Below are positions 17,709 through 29,175 of a stretch of 64,000 bases of DNA, piece by piece. Source of the stretch: Actinomycetota bacterium (GTDB taxonomy: Bacteria; Actinomycetota; Geothermincolia; Geothermincolales; RBG-13-55-18); NCBI GenBank assembly GCA_014360655.1, contig JACIXC010000002.1:62001-126000 (forward strand). The letters are read 5' to 3'. Every line of letters begins with the position of its first letter. Position 1 is the first letter of the stretch. A program made the translations under genes and the position numbers. Below the pieces are notes generated by a model. The model searched no databases. It had not been told where the DNA came from and saw only the letters and a list, made by a program, of their open reading frames with translations.

Positions 17709-18500
17709 ATGCCCTACGATTACGATCTGCTCATCGTCGAGATAAAGGACGGCGTTGCAACGGTGACCCTGAACCGCCCGCCCCTGAACCCCCTCAACGC
17801 CGAGCTGTTCAGCCAGATCGGCAGGTGCGCCGACGAGCTGGCGGCGGATGACCAGGTCAGGGCCGTGGTCATCACCGGCGGGGAGAAGAACTTCGCCGCG
17901 GGTGCGGACATCAAGGAGATGGTCGAGGCCAGCGCCGTGGACATCACCAAGTTCAACGTCCTGGCACAGGAGAGCTTCAGCAAGGTGGAGAACATCCCCA
18001 AGCCGGTCATCGCGGCCATCAACGGCTTCGCCCTGGGGGGAGGTTGCGAGCTGGCCATTTCCTGCGACTGGCGCTACGCGCACGAGAACGCCAAGATAGG
18101 GCAGCCGGAGATCCTTTTGGGCATCATCCCCGGCGCCGGCGGCACGCAGAGGCTGCCCCGCCTCATCGGACCCGCGAGAGCGAAGGAGATGATCTACAGC
18201 GGACGTTTCTACAGCGCACAGGAATGCCTGGAGATGGGGCTGGTGCAGAAGGTGGTCACCGGGGAGGAGTCGGTGATCGAGTACGCCCAGAAGGTCGCAG
18301 CCAGGTACGCGACCGGCCCGGCGGTGGCCCTGGCCATGGCCAAGAGGGCCATCAACAAGGGCATGGAATGCTCCATCGAGGAGGGGCTGGTCATCGAGTC
18401 GCAGGGATTCACCATCTGCTTCGCTTCGGAGGACCAGAAGATAGGTATGCGCACCTTCCTGGCCGAGGGACCCGGCAAGGCCAAGTTCGTGGGCCGTTAG
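17709..18500 (+). CDS. Enoyl-CoA hydratase/crotonase family protein
   Basis: This is a 263-residue crotonase-fold protein that probably hydrates trans-2-enoyl-CoA in beta-oxidation-type metabolism. The oxyanion-hole segments are AAGADIKEM and GFALGGGCELAISCDW, and the two catalytic glutamates are those in GGGCELA and PEILLGIIPGAGG, both present as in active hydratases. The start is supported by GAGGTGAG upstream. An acyl-CoA dehydrogenase follows 100 bases later, so the two probably catalyse consecutive steps on the same acyl-CoA. The chain-length preference is not visible. Confidence 0.92.
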   Translation: MPYDYDLLIVEIKDGVATVTLNRPPLNPLNAELFSQIGRCADELAADDQVRAVVITGGEKNFAAGADIKEMVEASAVDITKFNVLAQESFSKVENIPKPVIAAINGFALGGGCELAISCDWRYAHENAKIGQPEILLGIIPGAGGTQRLPRLIGPARAKEMIYSGRFYSAQECLEMGLVQKVVTGEESVIEYAQKVAARYATGPAVALAMAKRAINKGMECSIEEGLVIESQGFTICFASEDQKIGMRTFLAEGPGKAKFVGR

Positions 18501-18601
18501 GGGCGCGTACTGGATGATATAGACAGCCGGGCAGCTCAGGCCCGGAGGGCAGGAAGCGGTAACGTACGCCGAGGAGTTCGAAGAGGTAAGGAGGTTGATC
18601 G

Positions 18602-19771
18602 ATGATCGATTTCGAACCCAGCGAAGAACAAAAAGCAGCAGTGAAAATGGCCCACGAGTTCGCCCTCAACGAGATGAGGCCCGTCGCACTCGAGTGCGAC
18701 AAGACGGGTGAGATCCCCGACGAGCTCATCAAGAAGGCAGCGGCCGCGGGGCTCACCGCCATGGCCATCCCCGAGGAGTACGGCGGGGGAGGGCTTGACC
18801 AGGTGTCCGCGGCCATGGTCAGCGAGGAGCTCTTCTGGGGATGCGCCGGCATCGCCACCGCCATCGGGGCGAACAGCCTGGCCACCACCCCCATGCTCAT
18901 CGCGGGCAACGAGGAGCAGAAGCACAAGTACCTGCCCCGCCTGGCGGATCCCGACAACCCCAAGTTCGCGGCCTTCTGCCTCACCGAGCCGGGAGCCGGC
19001 TCGGACGCCGCCGCCATCTCCACCACCATCGTGGAGGAGGGCGACCACTACGTCCTCAACGGGCAGAAGTGCTTCATCACCAACGGGGGCCTCGCCGACT
19101 TCTACACCGTCTTCTGCACCTTCGACAAGGAGAAGAAGTACGGCGGCATCGCGGCGGTGATCGTGGAGCGCGCCTTCGAGGGCGTGTCCATCGGCAAGCA
19201 CGAGGACAAGATGGGGATCAGGGCCTCCAACACCACCGAGGTCATCTTCGACAACGTCAAGGTCCCCAAGGAGAACCTCCTGGTACCCATGGGCCAGGGC
19301 TTCTACAACGTGATGGTGACCCTGGACATGACGCGGGCCAGCGTCGCCGCCGGGGCCGTGGGCATCGCCCGCGCCGCCTTCGAGGAGGCGCTCAAGTACG
19401 CCAAGGAGAGGGTGCAGTTCGGGCGTCCCCTCATCGCCCACCAGGCCATCAACTTCATGCTGGCCGACATGGCCATGCAGATCGAGGCCGGCCGGCGCCT
19501 CTACCTGCTGGCGGCGTGGAAGGCCTATAAACTGCAGCCCTGCTCCCTGGAGTCCTCCTACGCCAAGGCCTTCTGCGGGGACATGGCCATGCGGGTGACC
19601 ACCGACGCCGTGCAGATCCACGGCGGCTACGGGTACATGAAGGAGTACCTGGTGGAGAAGCTCATGCGCGACGCCAAGATCATGCAGATCTACGAGGGAA
19701 CCAACCAGATCCAGCGCGTGATCATCGGCGCCAACCTCATGGGCGTCACCGACACCTTCCCCTGGGGCTGA
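18602..19771 (+). CDS. Acyl-CoA dehydrogenase
   Basis: A 389-residue FAD enzyme that introduces the alpha-beta double bond into acyl-CoA, passing electrons to ETF. Family motifs are CLTEPGAGSDAA, GQKCFITNGG, DMTRASVAAGAVGIA and the C-terminal YEGTNQIQRV, whose Glu matches the catalytic base of short-chain and butyryl-type dehydrogenases. AAGGAGG lies directly upstream of the ATG. It is paired with the enoyl-CoA hydratase and followed by a strong hairpin. No etfAB genes are in this window. Confidence 0.94.
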   Translation: MIDFEPSEEQKAAVKMAHEFALNEMRPVALECDKTGEIPDELIKKAAAAGLTAMAIPEEYGGGGLDQVSAAMVSEELFWGCAGIATAIGANSLATTPMLIAGNEEQKHKYLPRLADPDNPKFAAFCLTEPGAGSDAAAISTTIVEEGDHYVLNGQKCFITNGGLADFYTVFCTFDKEKKYGGIAAVIVERAFEGVSIGKHEDKMGIRASNTTEVIFDNVKVPKENLLVPMGQGFYNVMVTLDMTRASVAAGAVGIARAAFEEALKYAKERVQFGRPLIAHQAINFMLADMAMQIEAGRRLYLLAAWKAYKLQPCSLESSYAKAFCGDMAMRVTTDAVQIHGGYGYMKEYLVEKLMRDAKIMQIYEGTNQIQRVIIGANLMGVTDTFPWG

Positions 19772-19988: not shown

Positions 19989-20004
19989 TGGTAACATGGG
20001 AGAT

Positions 20005-21012
20005 ATGGCGAGGATAGGAATCACCACCACGGTACCCGTCGAGGTCATCTACGCCGCCGGGCACGTGCCGGTCGACCTCAACAACGTGTTCGTGTCCAGC
20101 CCCGCCTGCGGAGAGCTCATCGAGGAGGCCGAGCTCGCGGGGTTCCCGCGCTCCTTCTGCGCCTGGATAAAAGGGATATACGGGGCGGTGCGGCGCATGC
20201 CCGACCTGGGGGCGGTGGTGGCCGTCACGCAGGGGGACTGCTCCAACACCCATGCCCTCATGGAGACCCTGCAGTGCGAGGGCATGGAGGTCATCCCCTT
20301 CGCCTATCCCTACGAGCGCGATTACGACCTGCTGCGCGCGCAGGTCGAGGGCTTCGCGCGCCGCCTGGGGACCACCCTGGAGGAGGCGCAGGCGGAGATG
20401 CGCCGCCTGGACAGGGTGAGGAGGAAGGCCCGCCGCGTGGACGAGCTGTCCTGGAAAGAGGGCCTGGTGAGGGGCCTGGAAAACCATCTCGCCCTGGTGA
20501 GCTGCAGCGATTTCGAGGGGGACCCGGAGGGGTTCGCAACGAAGCTGGACCTGTTGCTGGAGGAGGTCGCGAAGAGGAGGCGGGACGAGGGTTTCAGGCG
20601 CGCCGAAGACATGGTGCGCCTGGGCTACGTGGGCGTCCCCCCCATGGCCCCCGAGCTCTACGAATACCTGGAATCGCTGGGGGCGAGGGTGGTCTACAAC
20701 GAGACGCAGAGGCAGTTCAGCCTGCCCTTCGACACGGGGGACCTGGTGGAGAAGTACCGCCGCTACAGCTATCCTTATTCCATATTTTACCGTTTGAGGG
20801 ACATAAGGCGCGAGGCGGCACGCCGCCGCCTGCGGGGGCTGATACATTACGTGCAGAGCTTCTGTTTCCGGCAGGTCGAGGACATCATCCTGCGCCGCTC
20901 GCTCGACCTGCCCATGCTCACCCTGGAGATGGACCGCTCCTCCCGCCTCGACGCCCGCACCAGGATGCGCCTCGAGAACTTCGTCTCCGTGCTGAGGAAG
21001 GATAGAGGCTGA
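20005..21012 (+). CDS. 2-hydroxyacyl-CoA dehydratase D-component-like protein (HgdB/YjiM, COG1775-like)
   Basis: A 335-residue relative of the iron-sulfur subunits of 2-hydroxyacyl-CoA dehydratases, benzoyl-CoA reductase (BcrC) and stand-alone double-cubane cluster proteins. It contains six cysteines: C35, C52, C79 (TQGDC), C91, C167 and C287 (HYVQSFCFRQ). The C-terminal pattern LPMLTLEMD...DARTRMRLENF is typical of the family. Only one such subunit is present rather than the A/B pair of true dehydratases, as in YjiM/double-cubane proteins. ATG 20005 follows a GGGAG site; upstream in-frame ATGs at 19984 and 19996 are less likely. The activator gene overlaps its stop (TGATG). The substrate is unknown. 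Confidence 0.82.
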   Translation: MARIGITTTVPVEVIYAAGHVPVDLNNVFVSSPACGELIEEAELAGFPRSFCAWIKGIYGAVRRMPDLGAVVAVTQGDCSNTHALMETLQCEGMEVIPFAYPYERDYDLLRAQVEGFARRLGTTLEEAQAEMRRLDRVRRKARRVDELSWKEGLVRGLENHLALVSCSDFEGDPEGFATKLDLLLEEVAKRRRDEGFRRAEDMVRLGYVGVPPMAPELYEYLESLGARVVYNETQRQFSLPFDTGDLVEKYRRYSYPYSIFYRLRDIRREAARRRLRGLIHYVQSFCFRQVEDIILRRSLDLPMLTLEMDRSSRLDARTRMRLENFVSVLRKDRG

Positions 21013-21800
21013 TGGACGTGCGTTACGGGGTGGACCTGGGCAGCCGCCGCGTGAAGGTCGCCGCAGAACAGGATGGCGGCGGCTACCGTTACCTGGGGCC
21101 CTTCGACACCGCCGCCTTTTATCGTGATCACGTGGAACCCGGCGGGGGAGGCGGCACCCTTCTATACGGGGGATTGGGCATGGAGGAGGGTCTGCCCCTG
21201 GCGGTGACGGGTTACGGGCGCGCGCGCCTGGGCGGGGGAGCGCTTGCCGTGCCCGAGCTGGAGGCGGTGGTGGCGGGAGTCCGTGAGCTCACCGGGCTGC
21301 GGGACGCCGTGATCCTCGACGTGGGAGGCCAGGATTCCAAGGCGCTGCTCATGAAGGACGGGCGGCTGGCTGACTTCGCCGCCAACGACCGTTGCGCCGC
21401 CTCCTCGGGGCGCTTCATGGAGAACATGTGCGCCGCACTGGGCATGAGCCTGGAGGAGCTGGGCGGGCACTGGGAGGACCCCGTGGAGCTCTCTTCCACC
21501 TGCGCCATCTTCGGGGAGAGCGAGCTGGTGGGCCTGCTGGGGGAGGGGGTGCCCAGGGAGCGCCTGGCGGCGGGCGTGAACCACGCCATACTGCGCCGCC
21601 TCCTACCGCTCCTCGCGCGCTTCCCCGCGGCTTCCCTGGTCCTCACCGGCGGGGTGGCGTACAATAATGCCCTGCGCAGGCTCATCGGGGAGAGGCTGGG
21701 GACGGAGCCCCTGGTCCCCCACCCCCCCGATTTCGTGGCCGCCGTGGGGTGCTGCCGCCTGGGGGCGCGCGTGGAGGAGGGCGATGATGGAAGAATTTGA
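21012..21800 (+). CDS. BadF/BadG/HgdC-family ATPase activator (COG1924-like)
   Basis: This 262-residue ASKHA-fold ATPase is of the kind that donates low-potential electrons to HgdB/BcrC-type proteins in an ATP-dependent step. Visible features are GVDLGSRRVKV (nucleotide-binding phosphate loop), DVGGQDSK, NDRCAASSGRF with C128, SSTCAIFGESE with C164 and LTGGVAYN. The two cysteines match the ligands that hold one [4Fe-4S] cluster between the subunits of the dimeric activator. The ATG overlaps the stop of the upstream HgdB-like gene, and its own stop lies inside the start of queD, so all three are translationally coupled. Confidence 0.85.
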   Translation: MDVRYGVDLGSRRVKVAAEQDGGGYRYLGPFDTAAFYRDHVEPGGGGGTLLYGGLGMEEGLPLAVTGYGRARLGGGALAVPELEAVVAGVRELTGLRDAVILDVGGQDSKALLMKDGRLADFAANDRCAASSGRFMENMCAALGMSLEELGGHWEDPVELSSTCAIFGESELVGLLGEGVPRERLAAGVNHAILRRLLPLLARFPAASLVLTGGVAYNNALRRLIGERLGTEPLVPHPPDFVAAVGCCRLGARVEEGDDGRI

Positions 21801-22170
21801 GATCTCGGCCGCCGTGCACTTCGACGCCGCGCACCGCCTGCCCGGGTATCACGGGCCCTGCGCCCGCCTGCACGGCCACCGCTGGCGGGTGGAGGCGGCG
21901 GTGGCGGGCGAGCGGTTGGACGATACGGGCATCCTCGTCGACTTCATGAAAGTCAAGGAATGGCTGCAGGATATCGTCTCCGCCTTCGACCACCGCTGCC
22001 TCAACGAGGTGGAGCCCTTCACGGCGATGGCGCCCACCTCGGAGAACCTGGCCCGCCACGTCTACGGCGAGCTGGCGAGGAGGATGGGCGAGCGGGCGGG
22101 GGCGGTGCGGCTTTCCTGGGTGAGCGTATCCGAGTCCCCGGACACGCGCGTGGTCTACCGGGAGGCATAG
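21784..22170 (+). CDS. queD: 6-carboxy-5,6,7,8-tetrahydropterin synthase
   Basis: QueD converts 7,8-dihydroneopterin triphosphate to 6-carboxytetrahydropterin in the pathway to preQ0, the precursor of queuosine and other 7-deazaguanines. The 128-residue protein has the zinc ligands H17 (DAAHRL), H30 and H32 (LHGHRW), the catalytic C26 and the second catalytic motif DHRCLNE. It starts at ATG 21784, inside the last codons of the activator gene, after GGAGGAGG. It is followed by queC. The 6-pyruvoyl-tetrahydropterin synthase fold is certain; the QueD role follows from the neighbours. Confidence 0.93.
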   Translation: MMEEFEISAAVHFDAAHRLPGYHGPCARLHGHRWRVEAAVAGERLDDTGILVDFMKVKEWLQDIVSAFDHRCLNEVEPFTAMAPTSENLARHVYGELARRMGERAGAVRLSWVSVSESPDTRVVYREA

Positions 22171-22250
22171 CCCGCGCCGCGTGCAGCGGGGAAGGTGCGG
22201 CTCACCGCGGAACCTTGAGGCGGTGTTGGGGCATGGAGGCATCGCGGGAC

Positions 22251-23015
22251 ATGCGGAGGAAAAAGTCGGAAAACCTGGTGCTCCTTTCCGGGGGCCTGGA
22301 CTCCGCCGTGAATCTTCTCATGGCTCTGCGCCGTGGCGGGGTGGGGCTTGCCGTCACCGTGGACTACGGCCAGAGGGCGGCGCGGCGCGAGGTGGAAAGG
22401 GCGTCCGCGCTGTGCGCGGTGCACGGGGTCCGACACGAGGTGATCGCGGCGAAGTGGCTGGGTAAATATTCCAGGGACGCCCTGACCACGCCGGGGGTCG
22501 CTTTTACGGGCGTGGCGGCGGGGACGGAAGGGGCAGGGGACGGTGAGCCCACAACGGCGCGGGACGATGCATCATTGCACGCGCTCTGGGTCCCCAACCG
22601 CAACGGCCTGCTGGCCAACGTGGGCGCCTGCCTGGCGGAGGCGCTGGGGATGAGGTACGTGGTCATGGGCCTCAACGCGGAGGAGGGCGCCGTCTTCCCG
22701 GACAACTCCCCCGCTTTCATAAGGGAGATGAACCGCGCCTTTTCCTATTCCACGCTCTCCAGGGTGCGCCTGAGGAGTTTTACCAAGAACATGAATAAAA
22801 TGGAAATAATGGCAGAGGCCCTCGCCTGCGGACTCGATTTTCGCTACCTTTGGTCGTGCTATAATGAGGGGGAATTGATGTGCGGTTCCTGCCCCTCCTG
22901 CGCACGGCTTCTCGCAGCCGCCGAGGGGTTGGGGGTGAGGGATAGGCTGAAGGGATATTTCGGGAGCGGGCGCTCGCCGCAAGGGGACGCCGGTCAAAGG
23001 GGAGAGATTCCATGA
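22251..23015 (+). CDS. queC: 7-cyano-7-deazaguanine (preQ0) synthase
   Basis: QueC uses ATP and ammonia to turn 7-carboxy-7-deazaguanine into preQ0. The PP-loop is SGGLDS (residues 13-18 from ATG 22251). The C-terminal zinc site is C203, C211, C214 and C217 (CGSCPSC). The protein is 254 residues from this start, which has GGAGG 11 bases upstream; ATG 22233 would add six residues. An unusual low-complexity Ala/Gly/Thr segment occurs around residues 85-105. Its stop overlaps the DUF366 start (ATGA). Confidence 0.93.
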   Translation: MRRKKSENLVLLSGGLDSAVNLLMALRRGGVGLAVTVDYGQRAARREVERASALCAVHGVRHEVIAAKWLGKYSRDALTTPGVAFTGVAAGTEGAGDGEPTTARDDASLHALWVPNRNGLLANVGACLAEALGMRYVVMGLNAEEGAVFPDNSPAFIREMNRAFSYSTLSRVRLRSFTKNMNKMEIMAEALACGLDFRYLWSCYNEGELMCGSCPSCARLLAAAEGLGVRDRLKGYFGSGRSPQGDAGQRGEIP

Positions 23016-23599
23016 AGGGTAAATACATCAAGGGTAGAAGCATCACCTACGACGGCTCGCAGCTGCGTTCCCATTACGCCTATACCGAGCACGACGTGCA
23101 GGGCGACTCCGTGGTCGCTTTCCGCGGACCCTGCCGGGTGGGGGTGGACGATCTCGTGGACCTGGAGGACCGCAAGAAGAAGGCCGAGATCTACAGCGAG
23201 GAGATGGCCCATTTCATAGTGGAGCTCTTCGGGCGCGACCTTGACCTGACCCTGGCCATTCAGCGCCTCCTCCTCTGCGTGATCAAGGACGTCATCGAGG
23301 AGCTGAAACCGGAGCTCTTCATCAACCGCCGCGGCGATGACCTCTACATAGAGGTGGAGGTGGACGAGGGCGAGGAGGAGAACCGCAAGCTGACGGTGAG
23401 CGTGGCCACCGCCAGCCCCGTGTCCACGCTCATCCATACGGGCATCAACATCTCCAGCCGCAACACTCCCGTGCCCACCCTGGGGCTTGACGACCTGGAG
23501 ATCCCTGTGGACGATTTCATCCTCAAGGTCCTGCAGGGGTTCATAAACGAGATGAAGGGGATGGAGCTCGCGCGCTGCAAGGTGCGCGCCGTCACCTGA
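23012..23599 (+). CDS. DUF366 family protein (COG2029-like)
   Basis: A 195-residue protein matching the uncharacterised DUF366 family. The recognisable run includes YDGSQLRSHYAY, the glycine/acid-rich QGDSVVAFRGPCRV, DLEDRKK, MAHFIVELFG, FINRRGDDLYI and the Ser/Thr-rich VATASPVSTLIHTGINISS. It is soluble, with no signal peptide. It starts within the queC stop (ATGA), so it belongs to the preQ0 operon; DUF366 genes are commonly found beside queuosine or archaeosine genes, which suggests a role there. The reaction is unknown. Confidence 0.85.
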   Translation: MKGKYIKGRSITYDGSQLRSHYAYTEHDVQGDSVVAFRGPCRVGVDDLVDLEDRKKKAEIYSEEMAHFIVELFGRDLDLTLAIQRLLLCVIKDVIEELKPELFINRRGDDLYIEVEVDEGEEENRKLTVSVATASPVSTLIHTGINISSRNTPVPTLGLDDLEIPVDDFILKVLQGFINEMKGMELARCKVRAVT

Positions 23600-23745
23600 A
23601 GAGCGGTCGTGTCCTTCCGGCTTACGCTCCCGCGCACCGCGTACCCGCCTCGCGGGGCATGCGCCCCCGGCCGACGCGGGCGGGGGCGGCCCGCGCCGTC
23701 GCCGTGCGGGATAAGCTGTCGCGCGCGCGGGGGGAAAGCGGTGGT

Positions 23746-24594
23746 GTGCCTGTGAACGTCTGCGAGGTATTCCCGTCCTTCCAGGGCGAGGGCGTGCTTG
23801 CCGGGGTCCCGCAGGTCTTTCTGAGGCTGGGAGGGTGCAACCTCGACTGTTCGTATTGCGACACGCCCTGGGCGAGGGCGGAGTCGGACACGTGTCGCGT
23901 GTACGGATGGGAAGGGCTCCTGGAAACAGTTACCAACCCGCTGGATGCGCGGCTCCTCGCCGAGCGGGTCGCGGCGTTATGGGAAAGCGGCATGCACTCG
24001 CTGAGCCTCACCGGCGGCGAACCGCTCCTGCAGGCAGAAGGGCTGGCGGAGCTGCTGCCCGTGCTGCGCCGCCGGGGCATGCCCGTCTACCTAGAGAGCA
24101 ACGGCACCCTTCCGGAGAAGCTGGCCGCACTGCTGGAATGGGTGGACTGGATCGCCATGGACCTCAAGCTGCCGTATTCCCAGGGCGGGAAAGACTACCT
24201 GGAAGCGCAGCGGGATTTCCTGCGCCTGGCCTCCTCGCGGCGCTTGTTCCTCAAGGTGGTCATAGAGGAGGGTACCCCCGCCGGAGAGCTGGAACGTTTC
24301 CTGCGCGTCATGGCGGGGGTGGCGGAAGGCGTGCCGCTGGTGCTGCAGCCGGTATCCCTCCCCCTACGGGATACGGCGCGGGGGCCTGGCACATGGGGCG
24401 GCGGGAAGGAAGCGCCGGCTGGCGAGGGCCGGGGCGAAGGTTGCGCGGGAGGCGCGCAGCCGCCCGCAGCGGTTGCGCGGGACAGGGTGGGAATAAGCGC
24501 GGAGCGCGCGGCCGCCTTCCTCCGCATCGCCTCCGCCCATTTCCGTGATGTCCGGGTCATCCCCCAGCTGCATCGCGCCTGGGGGATAAGGTAG
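23746..24594 (+). CDS. queE: 7-carboxy-7-deazaguanine synthase (radical SAM)
   Basis: QueE rearranges 6-carboxytetrahydropterin to 7-carboxy-7-deazaguanine using SAM and a [4Fe-4S] cluster. The cluster motif is C31, C35 and C38 (GCNLDCSYC), preceded by the family N-terminus FPSFQGEGVLAG and followed by SLTGGEPLL and the DLKLPYS motif. GTG 23746 is preferred because GGGGGAA lies about 9 bases upstream and upstream in-frame sequence is low complexity. An Ala/Gly-rich insertion of some 35 residues near the C-terminus (around residues 207-245) is unusual. It lies 146 bases after DUF366, in the same direction. Confidence 0.92.
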   Translation: MPVNVCEVFPSFQGEGVLAGVPQVFLRLGGCNLDCSYCDTPWARAESDTCRVYGWEGLLETVTNPLDARLLAERVAALWESGMHSLSLTGGEPLLQAEGLAELLPVLRRRGMPVYLESNGTLPEKLAALLEWVDWIAMDLKLPYSQGGKDYLEAQRDFLRLASSRRLFLKVVIEEGTPAGELERFLRVMAGVAEGVPLVLQPVSLPLRDTARGPGTWGGGKEAPAGEGRGEGCAGGAQPPAAVARDRVGISAERAAAFLRIASAHFRDVRVIPQLHRAWGIR

Positions 24595-24717: not shown

Positions 24718-25356
24718 ATGGCACTCGACCACGCGCCGGAGGACCTGAAGAGGGCGCGCGAGAAGGCGGCGAGGGAGTTCAGGCTCCTGGACCCGTCCTG
24801 GATGGCTTCACGCTCGGGGACCTTCTATTCCTACCCGCGGCGCACCTTCTTCGTCCCCTTCTTCGGCGAGCCGTACTCCGTCTCCTACCCGGAAGGCACG
24901 GTGGCGCGCGGAAACGGCAGCCCCGCGGGGGCGCGGGAGGCGCTCATCGTCGTGCATTACCTCGTGAACGCGGACGGCACGCCGGTGCAGGGAAGGTGGG
25001 TGGCCTACCGCGACCTTCCCGGGGCGCGTTACCACGAGCCTGCCTTCGTGGCCGAGGTGGAGAACCCCCTCTCCCGCGGTTTGGCGGGGCGGCGGGAGGA
25101 GCTGCGGGGATGGGCGGAGGAGAACGCCGAGGCCGTGGACCTTCCCGGGGACGTGGCAGCGGCCTGGTACGTGCTGCCGCGCGTGCCGCTGCTGCTCGTC
25201 TTCAACGACGGGGACGAGGAATTCCCGGCGAGCGCGCGCGTTTTCTTCGACGCGAGCGCGCCGCATTACCTGCCCACCGAGGACCTCTCCGTGCTGGCGG
25301 AGCTCGCGGCGCTGCGCCTGCTCGAGGAGACCGGAGCCCTGGGCGCGGGGCATTAA
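24718..25356 (+). CDS. DUF3786-like protein
   Basis: A 212-residue soluble protein that resembles the uncharacterised DUF3786 family found in anaerobes. Supporting patterns are FYSYPRRTFFVPFFGEPYSV, an internal VVHYLVNADGTPVQG, WVAYRDLPGARYHEPAF and the C-terminal LLLVFNDGDEEFPASARVFFD with PHYLPTEDLSVL. No signal peptide, membrane helix or cysteine cluster is seen. The ATG has GAGGTG about 9 bases upstream, and a TATATT box lies at 24679. Relatives are often reported near corrinoid or CO/acetyl-CoA enzymes, but no such gene is adjacent here, so I infer no function. Confidence 0.7.
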   Translation: MALDHAPEDLKRAREKAAREFRLLDPSWMASRSGTFYSYPRRTFFVPFFGEPYSVSYPEGTVARGNGSPAGAREALIVVHYLVNADGTPVQGRWVAYRDLPGARYHEPAFVAEVENPLSRGLAGRREELRGWAEENAEAVDLPGDVAAAWYVLPRVPLLLVFNDGDEEFPASARVFFDASAPHYLPTEDLSVLAELAALRLLEETGALGAGH

Positions 25357-27345: not shown

Positions 27346-27420
27346 GCCCTTGTAGCTCAGTGGATAGAGCAGTGGCCTCCGGAGCCACGTGCGGGAGTTC
27401 GAATCTCCCCAAGGGCGCCA
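27346..27420 (+). tRNA. tRNA-Arg (anticodon CCG)
   Basis: The cloverleaf folds directly: acceptor GCCCTTG pairs with CAAGGGC, the D-arm is GCTC...GAGC, and the anticodon stem GTGGC/GCCAC holds the loop CTCCGGA with anticodon CCG. The T-arm reads GGGAGTTCGAATCTCCC. The discriminator is G and the CCA end is encoded. It decodes CGG. A TPR protein gene starts only 20 bases beyond the CCA, so both probably share a transcript. Confidence 0.96.
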
Positions 27421-28863: not shown

Positions 28864-29065
28864 GGCGACCTCCTTTCCGGGATTTCGACTCACGCCGTTT
28901 CGCGCGAAAACGGCAACGTACCGGTATGGGGCGGAACGAACGGGTTGATGTCCGCCCTTCCTTCCCCTGTTGCCTTATTGTATATTTTACATGAGGAAAT
29001 ATGCCGTATGCGCAGCCGCAGGGCCTGTCCCGAAGCCGCAGCGCAGGTTGACAACCGCATAAGCT

Positions 29066-29146
29066 CCATGTAGGGGTGCTCCCGAGCGGGGGCTGAGAGC
29101 ATACCCTCGGAACCTGACCTGGGTAATGCCAGCGTAGGGAACATGG
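29066..29146 (+). promoter_or_regulatory. TPP riboswitch (THI element)
   Basis: The conserved core is present: GGGGTGC, then GGCTGAGAG, then AACCTGACCTGGGTAATGCC and GCGTAGGGAA. The closing P1 helix is CCATG (29066-29070) with CATGG (29142-29146). It binds thiamine pyrophosphate and controls the thi4-thiE-thiC-thiL-thiD genes downstream. An intrinsic terminator follows within 30 bases, so regulation is probably by premature termination. Confidence 0.97.
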
Positions 29147-29175
29147 TCGATTCGTGACGATCGATTGTTTTCGCG

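Follow-up and report, generated by a model that had tools for sequence, protein, structure and literature searches.

The window analysed here, 64,000 nucleotides from the genome of an Actinomycetota bacterium (contig JACIXC010000002.1, positions 62,001 to 126,000), carries at positions 20005-24594 six genes on the + strand, which encode an HgdB-like protein, an HgdC-like activator, QueD, QueC, a DUF366 protein and QueE. The present analysis indicates that the HgdB-HgdC pair is probably a non-orthologous replacement of QueF, reducing 7-cyano-7-deazaguanine (preQ0) to preQ1 in the synthesis of the tRNA modification queuosine. Such a role had been put forward as a possibility in an earlier reading of the DNA made without database searches (hereafter the sequence-only reading), and comparative evidence now supports it on four counts, namely the absence of queF from the genome, the conserved gene neighbourhood, the mutual exclusion of HgdB and QueF, and the reciprocal decay of the two proteins.

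The source genome (2.97 Mb, 99.96% complete), whose closest relatives in genome collections are Candidatus Solincola and related Actinomycetota, covers every pathway-specific step of queuosine synthesis except the conversion of preQ0 to preQ1. In addition to queD, queC and queE, it contains tgt, queA and queH, which are grouped on the same contig about 42-45 kb past the window end. The sequence-only reading had noted that no queF lies in the window and had proposed a search of the complete genome for queF and queH. In that search queH is present and queF (PF14489) was not found, so that its absence extends beyond the window. It is because all these genes are present while queF is lacking that the missing step can be assigned to the reduction of preQ0.

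The HgdB-like protein occurs in the same setting elsewhere, that is, with QueA and QueC and without QueF. Among 50 further HgdB-carrying genomes, QueF exceeds the family cut-off in none, QueA is found in 49, and QueC (score of at least 133 bits) in 46, which argues that preQ0 is an intermediate in these organisms. Three genomes (those of loci L030, L038 and L042) combine QueA and HgdB with no QueC, and would fit the uptake, followed by the reduction, of salvaged preQ0. The lone sub-threshold QueF match (G041) proved to be FolE, and the remaining sub-threshold matches to PF14489 in HgdB genomes were taken, without individual inspection, to be of the same kind. Sporomusa ovata, too, has HgdB, and a search for queF there gave none.

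To avoid selecting genomes by HgdB, two phyla were also sampled evenly, a completeness of at least 90% being required of each genome. In the phylum of Geomonas (296 genomes, QueA in 290), the HgdB scores are bimodal, 86 genomes scoring at least 360 bits, four 236-285 bits and all others at most 44 bits. QueF, clearly present in 154 of the 296, is found in 2 of the 86 genomes with HgdB versus 152 of the 210 others (Fisher p ~3e-32, kinship ignored). In the phylum of Sporomusa (300 genomes) the corresponding figures are 0 of 54 and 80 of 246 (p ~1e-8, kinship ignored). HgdB and QueF thus nearly exclude each other in both samples, and the correlation with the absence of queF, which the sequence-only reading had proposed to survey, is very strong across phyla.

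Kinship was controlled for with a tree of QueA from 100 of the sampled genomes and the window genome, the rows being chosen for better QueA scores and not at random. This tree is only a proxy for the species, since QueA may itself have moved between lineages. HgdB and QueF are interleaved on it, the HgdB label requiring 14 changes, at least 7 of them on well-supported branches. Among the pairs that are independent and well supported, 7 differ in HgdB; QueF changes in the opposite direction in 4.7 of these on average, and in the same direction in none. All rows enter these figures, as a restriction to rows bearing either enzyme alone would be circular.

Across everything searched, no genome with both HgdB and QueF intact was found. 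The two double-positive genomes (G260 and G280) encode a QueF-like protein of 145-148 residues beside a thyX-like gene, from which the catalytic Cys is absent: the stretch that in Bacillus subtilis QueF is TSLCPKTGQPDF reads TFLGVSGQPDF or TFLGMSRQPDF. In loci L127 and L128 the QueF-like protein, which occurs together with an intact HgdB, has retained QPDF and ELKSLK and may serve a new function.

The reverse situation is met in three of the four genomes with mid-scoring HgdB (G241, G281 and G319). These contain a full-length type II QueF with an intact SNCLVTGQPDW site, together with an HgdB homologue that has lost all three cluster cysteines. In their intact relatives (L053 and L082) the gene order is murI-HgdB-HgdC-radical SAM, while in the relic loci (L131-L133) it is murI-relic-radical SAM, with HgdC missing. 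On account of this shared murI-radical SAM synteny, the relics are orthologues of intact HgdB. The simplest reason why QueF-bearing lineages lost exactly the cluster ligands and the activator is redundancy. In the fourth mid-scoring genome (G320) the HgdB reading frame is broken and the PF14489 match is weak (E 7.5e-5). The three relics are still full-length open frames, either kept for another use or decaying slowly.

The HgdB-like protein belongs to the HGD-D superfamily by its profile, its fold and its HgdC-type activator partner. Its AlphaFold model (mean pLDDT, a predicted local confidence score, of 92.5) gives Foldseek template-modelling (TM) scores of 0.75-0.82 to HadB, DCCP and BzdNO, and its 19 top PDB matches all belong to the HadBC/DCCP/BzdNO family (E 4e-15 to 2e-11). 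Homology to QueF is not seen, the sole Pfam matches of the pair being HGD-D and BcrAD_BadFG. At least 171 relatives in the genome collection were confirmed by tblastn, and the 80 best were retained. With about 50-88% identity across ~330 residues, these belong to Actinomycetota, Bacillota (Sporomusa, Pelosinus) and Desulfuromonadales (Geomonas, Geotalea), with further members in records titled Chloroflexi, Armatimonadetes and Zixibacteria. The family is sharply bounded, with strong matches at 360 bits or more and paralogues at 44 or less, and an alignment of 35 relatives has 56 invariant columns.

The six cysteines counted in the sequence-only reading are real (positions 35, 52, 79, 91, 167 and 287), but only C52, C79 and C287 are conserved, at 99-100% in 81 homologues, as opposed to 12% for C35, 2% for C91 and 57% for C167. 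These three line up with three cysteines of DCCP, while the remaining DCCP cysteines in the aligned stretch are unmatched. The hint of a double-cubane protein is therefore not borne out, in agreement with the score against the DCCP model NF040772, 49.9 bits against a cut-off of 350. Since only three cysteines are conserved, the protein is instead predicted to hold a single [4Fe-4S] cluster with one iron open, by analogy with HadB and BzdO, which are described as having a single three-Cys [4Fe-4S] site (PMC11971306). A 2-hydroxyacyl-CoA dehydratase or class I benzoyl-CoA (coenzyme A) reductase would have two different HGD-D subunits; one HgdB-like gene per locus is found in 80 of 80 loci. In the activator, C128 and C164 lie where they had been placed before and are the two cluster-bridging cysteines, both aligning with those of the HadI activator 4eht. 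An HgdC homologue accompanies HgdB in 56 of the 80 loci.

On this basis we propose the following mechanism. The reduced HgdC-like activator would hydrolyse ATP and send single electrons of very low potential to the HgdB cluster, bound by C52, C79 and C287 and with its fourth iron open. With four electrons and four protons, the cluster would then convert the preQ0 nitrile into the preQ1 aminomethyl group, after which Tgt, QueA and QueH would complete queuosine. We infer here the reaction itself, the type of cluster, the stoichiometry of ATP and electrons, the homodimeric catalytic unit and the substrate, either free preQ0 or preQ0 in tRNA. Activators of the HAD/BCR superfamily hydrolyse ATP and transfer single electrons to a catalytic cluster, and the superfamily member DCCP uses ATP to reduce acetylene, hydrazine and azide (PMC11971306). 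By analogy with these substrates, the reduction of a nitrile by an HgdB-type protein would be chemically reasonable.

The neighbourhood of the pair, whose conservation in relatives had been named beforehand as a test of the idea, holds in 12 actinomycetotal loci (L004-L014 and L023), where HgdB precedes queD and, in half of the loci, HgdC lies between the two. It is rearranged in an Armatimonadetes locus and in one from an unassigned bacterium (L043 and L074, respectively), where HgdB directly follows queE in the orders DUF366-queE-HgdB and queD-queC-DUF366-queE-HgdB. HgdB is linked in operons with que genes in at least two arrangements, and this difference in position argues for more than one origin of the linkage. 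Most Bacillota and Desulfuromonadales loci retain the HgdB-HgdC pair, but at another site, often by murI. The tblastn matches to QueE beside HgdB in L053 and L082 are really another radical SAM gene, which also flanks the relics, and were excluded from the que linkage.

Several observations weigh against the assignment of the pair as a QueF replacement. The pair is distant from que genes in most Bacillota and Desulfuromonadota. Some que-linked loci (L006-L008, L010, L012 and L023) have no adjoining HgdC, and their activator must lie elsewhere. The sign test on the support-restricted independent pairs gives only p ~0.06, because the 7 pairs are few; the pattern itself recurs across the tree. 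An acyl-CoA dehydrogenase gene lies shortly upstream of HgdB in the window and in 10 actinomycetotal relatives, which would suit a CoA substrate too. Finally, 57 QueA-positive genomes of the Geomonas phylum have neither an intact HgdB nor QueF, which requires salvage or a third solution besides these two enzymes. These genomes are possible candidates for preQ1 salvage or a third preQ0 reductase.

The alternative that survives best, and that we nevertheless consider rather improbable, is that the pair replaces QueF at another point of the pathway, reducing preQ0 in tRNA after TGT or working on a precursor. The same exclusion of QueF would result, and the data do not separate the free base from a tRNA-bound substrate. 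The precursor version is disfavoured by QueC, the enzyme that makes preQ0, in the 46 genomes mentioned above, which leaves the tRNA version unaffected, while the three genomes with QueA and no QueC fit salvaged preQ0.

A function of the pair as acyl-CoA dehydratase or reductase, together with the enoyl-CoA hydratase and acyl-CoA dehydrogenase encoded upstream and with the que genes as chance neighbours, is very unlikely. Membership of the HAD/BCR superfamily and the recurrent acyl-CoA dehydrogenase would suit such an enzyme. However, these enzymes need two different catalytic subunits, of which a single one is found here and in the 80 homologous loci, and the pairs of other phyla have no genes for enoyl-CoA hydratase or acyl-CoA dehydrogenase nearby. 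The exclusion of QueF and the linked decay would also be left unexplained.

We also considered that the correlation could be ecological, HgdB being a marker of strict anaerobes in which the lack of QueF has other causes and preQ1 comes from salvage or an unrecognised enzyme, for example DUF366. The HgdB family is indeed found mainly in groups known as anaerobic, and the 57 genomes without both enzymes would be in line with this explanation. It is nonetheless highly improbable. QueF is widespread in both sampled phyla (154 of 296 and 80 of 300 genomes) and alternates with HgdB among close relatives, and HgdB genomes have their own preQ0 synthesis gene queC. Nor does ecology predict that a genome with QueF would retain a relic of HgdB that is devoid of the cluster ligands. 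The modelled fold of DUF366 matches 2ddz, then LplA and biotin ligases, and because of this biotin/lipoate ligase fold DUF366 is unlikely to be the missing reductase. Bacillota loci L120-L122 have queD-queC-DUF366-queE clusters without an adjoining HgdB, with DUF366 as a ligase-like protein in queuosine operons. A role of the pair in the reduction of epoxyqueuosine (the QueG/QueH step), another reduction in the pathway for which low-potential electrons could serve, is extremely improbable, since the window genome has QueH and lacks QueF, and the exclusion seen is with QueF.

The features of the locus are collected in Table 1. The order of the four genes after the pair agrees with the sequence-only reading, as do the overlaps of HgdB with HgdC (1 nucleotide, TGATG) and of HgdC with queD (14 nucleotides). 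A further overlap of 4 nucleotides (ATGA) joins queC and DUF366, while queD and queC are separated by a gap of 62-80 nucleotides and DUF366 and queE are likewise spaced. The HgdB-like gene begins with the ATG at 20005, other in-frame starts being at 19996 and 19984. The score of queC against TIGR00364, 138.4 bits, is slightly under the cut-off of 150.3. For queE, the top NCBIfam matches are QueE models, every one below its cut-off, and the translation contains a CNLDCSYC motif.

Table 1. Coordinates of the genes of the locus in the window and of the QueF-like proteins in two other loci (bit scores are for the profile named).
Feature	Location	Strand	Evidence or remark
HgdB/BzdO-like catalytic subunit, 335 residues	20005..21012	+	PF06050 (HGD-D) 122.8 bits, cut-off 28.4
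HgdC/BadF-like ATP-dependent activator, 262 residues	21012..21800	+	TIGR00241 156.7 bits, cut-off 125.4
queD, 6-carboxytetrahydropterin synthase	21787..22170	+	TIGR03367 101.6 bits, over cut-off
queC, preQ0 synthase	22233..23015 (start 22233 or 22251)	+	PF06508 141.7 bits
DUF366 protein, biotin/lipoate protein ligase fold	23012..23599	+	PF04017 203.2 bits; 2ddz homologue
queE, 7-carboxy-7-deazaguanine synthase, radical SAM	23746..24594 (start 23659 or 23746)	+	PF04055 54.7 bits
QueF-like protein without catalytic Cys	L127:1120-1566	-	beside thyX-like gene
QueF-like protein without catalytic Cys	L128:1069-1506	+	beside thyX-like gene

Directly upstream of the pair, at 17709-19771, are the enoyl-CoA hydratase and acyl-CoA dehydrogenase genes. 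No sigma-70-like promoter was found between the latter and the pair, where 0.6 sites would be expected by chance. Downstream of the que operon, at 24718-25356, lies a gene for a DUF3786 protein, which is also found downstream in 10 related loci (L004-L013). A search for preQ1 riboswitches by the pair or the que genes gave none over threshold in the window region, nine Bacillota HgdB loci and 40 short queC/HgdB loci, a negative result that is of no weight for or against the proposed function. A thiamine pyrophosphate (TPP) riboswitch at 29062-29157 (+, 73.4 bits) and a tRNA gene at 27346-27417 (+) are both ordinary. In Sporomusa silvacetica, a match to RAGATH-18 RNA (L017:15453-15514, +, 63.3 bits) lies about 6 kb from the HgdB pair.

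To our knowledge, QueF is the only enzyme known to reduce a nitrile to a primary amine. Judging from the distribution and sequences of the two families, the pair is likely to constitute a second, unrelated route for this conversion, in which a member of the HAD/BCR radical-enzyme superfamily that is driven by ATP and holds one [4Fe-4S] cluster serves anaerobic lineages in several phyla and has traded places with QueF repeatedly during evolution. QueF is the listed preQ0-reducing enzyme in bacteria and is treated as required for the use of preQ0 (PMC6593275, PMC11130926). In the open-licence literature we found neither HgdB/BadF-type proteins in queuosine synthesis nor any bacterial replacement of QueF, so the predicted replacement is strongly supported by the genomic evidence and, as far as checked, unreported. 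If it is correct, many bacteria now scored as lacking the preQ0-reduction step would be complete queuosine makers, a whole HAD/BCR branch with the HGD-D (2-hydroxyglutaryl-CoA dehydratase) profile would gain a function, and the iron-sulfur chemistry of the superfamily would extend to nitriles, which the substrates of DCCP make plausible.

Compared with known systems, the pair would share with QueF (PF14489) the reaction and the place in the pathway. The two are otherwise unrelated, QueF being a tunnelling-fold enzyme that uses a Cys thioimide and NADPH, whereas the pair consists of an iron-sulfur type protein and an ATP-driven activator. DCCP/DCCP-R (NF040772; 6eno and 7yyl) has the same fold (TM ~0.8), likewise combines one kind of catalytic subunit with one activator, and reduces small molecules, as is proposed for the pair, but has six cluster cysteines per subunit, of which the window protein keeps the three ligands of one cubane. 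The HgdAB-HgdC, HadBC-HadI and BzdNO-PQ systems share the HGD-D family, the HgdC-type activator and the single three-Cys [4Fe-4S] site; they act on CoA substrates with two different catalytic subunits, in contrast to the one shorter subunit of 335 residues tied here to queuosine genes. Finally, QueH (PF02677) is likewise a queuosine reductase, alternative to the unrelated QueG. It belongs to a different iron-sulfur family, acts on epoxyqueuosine in the last step, and coexists with the pair in the window genome.

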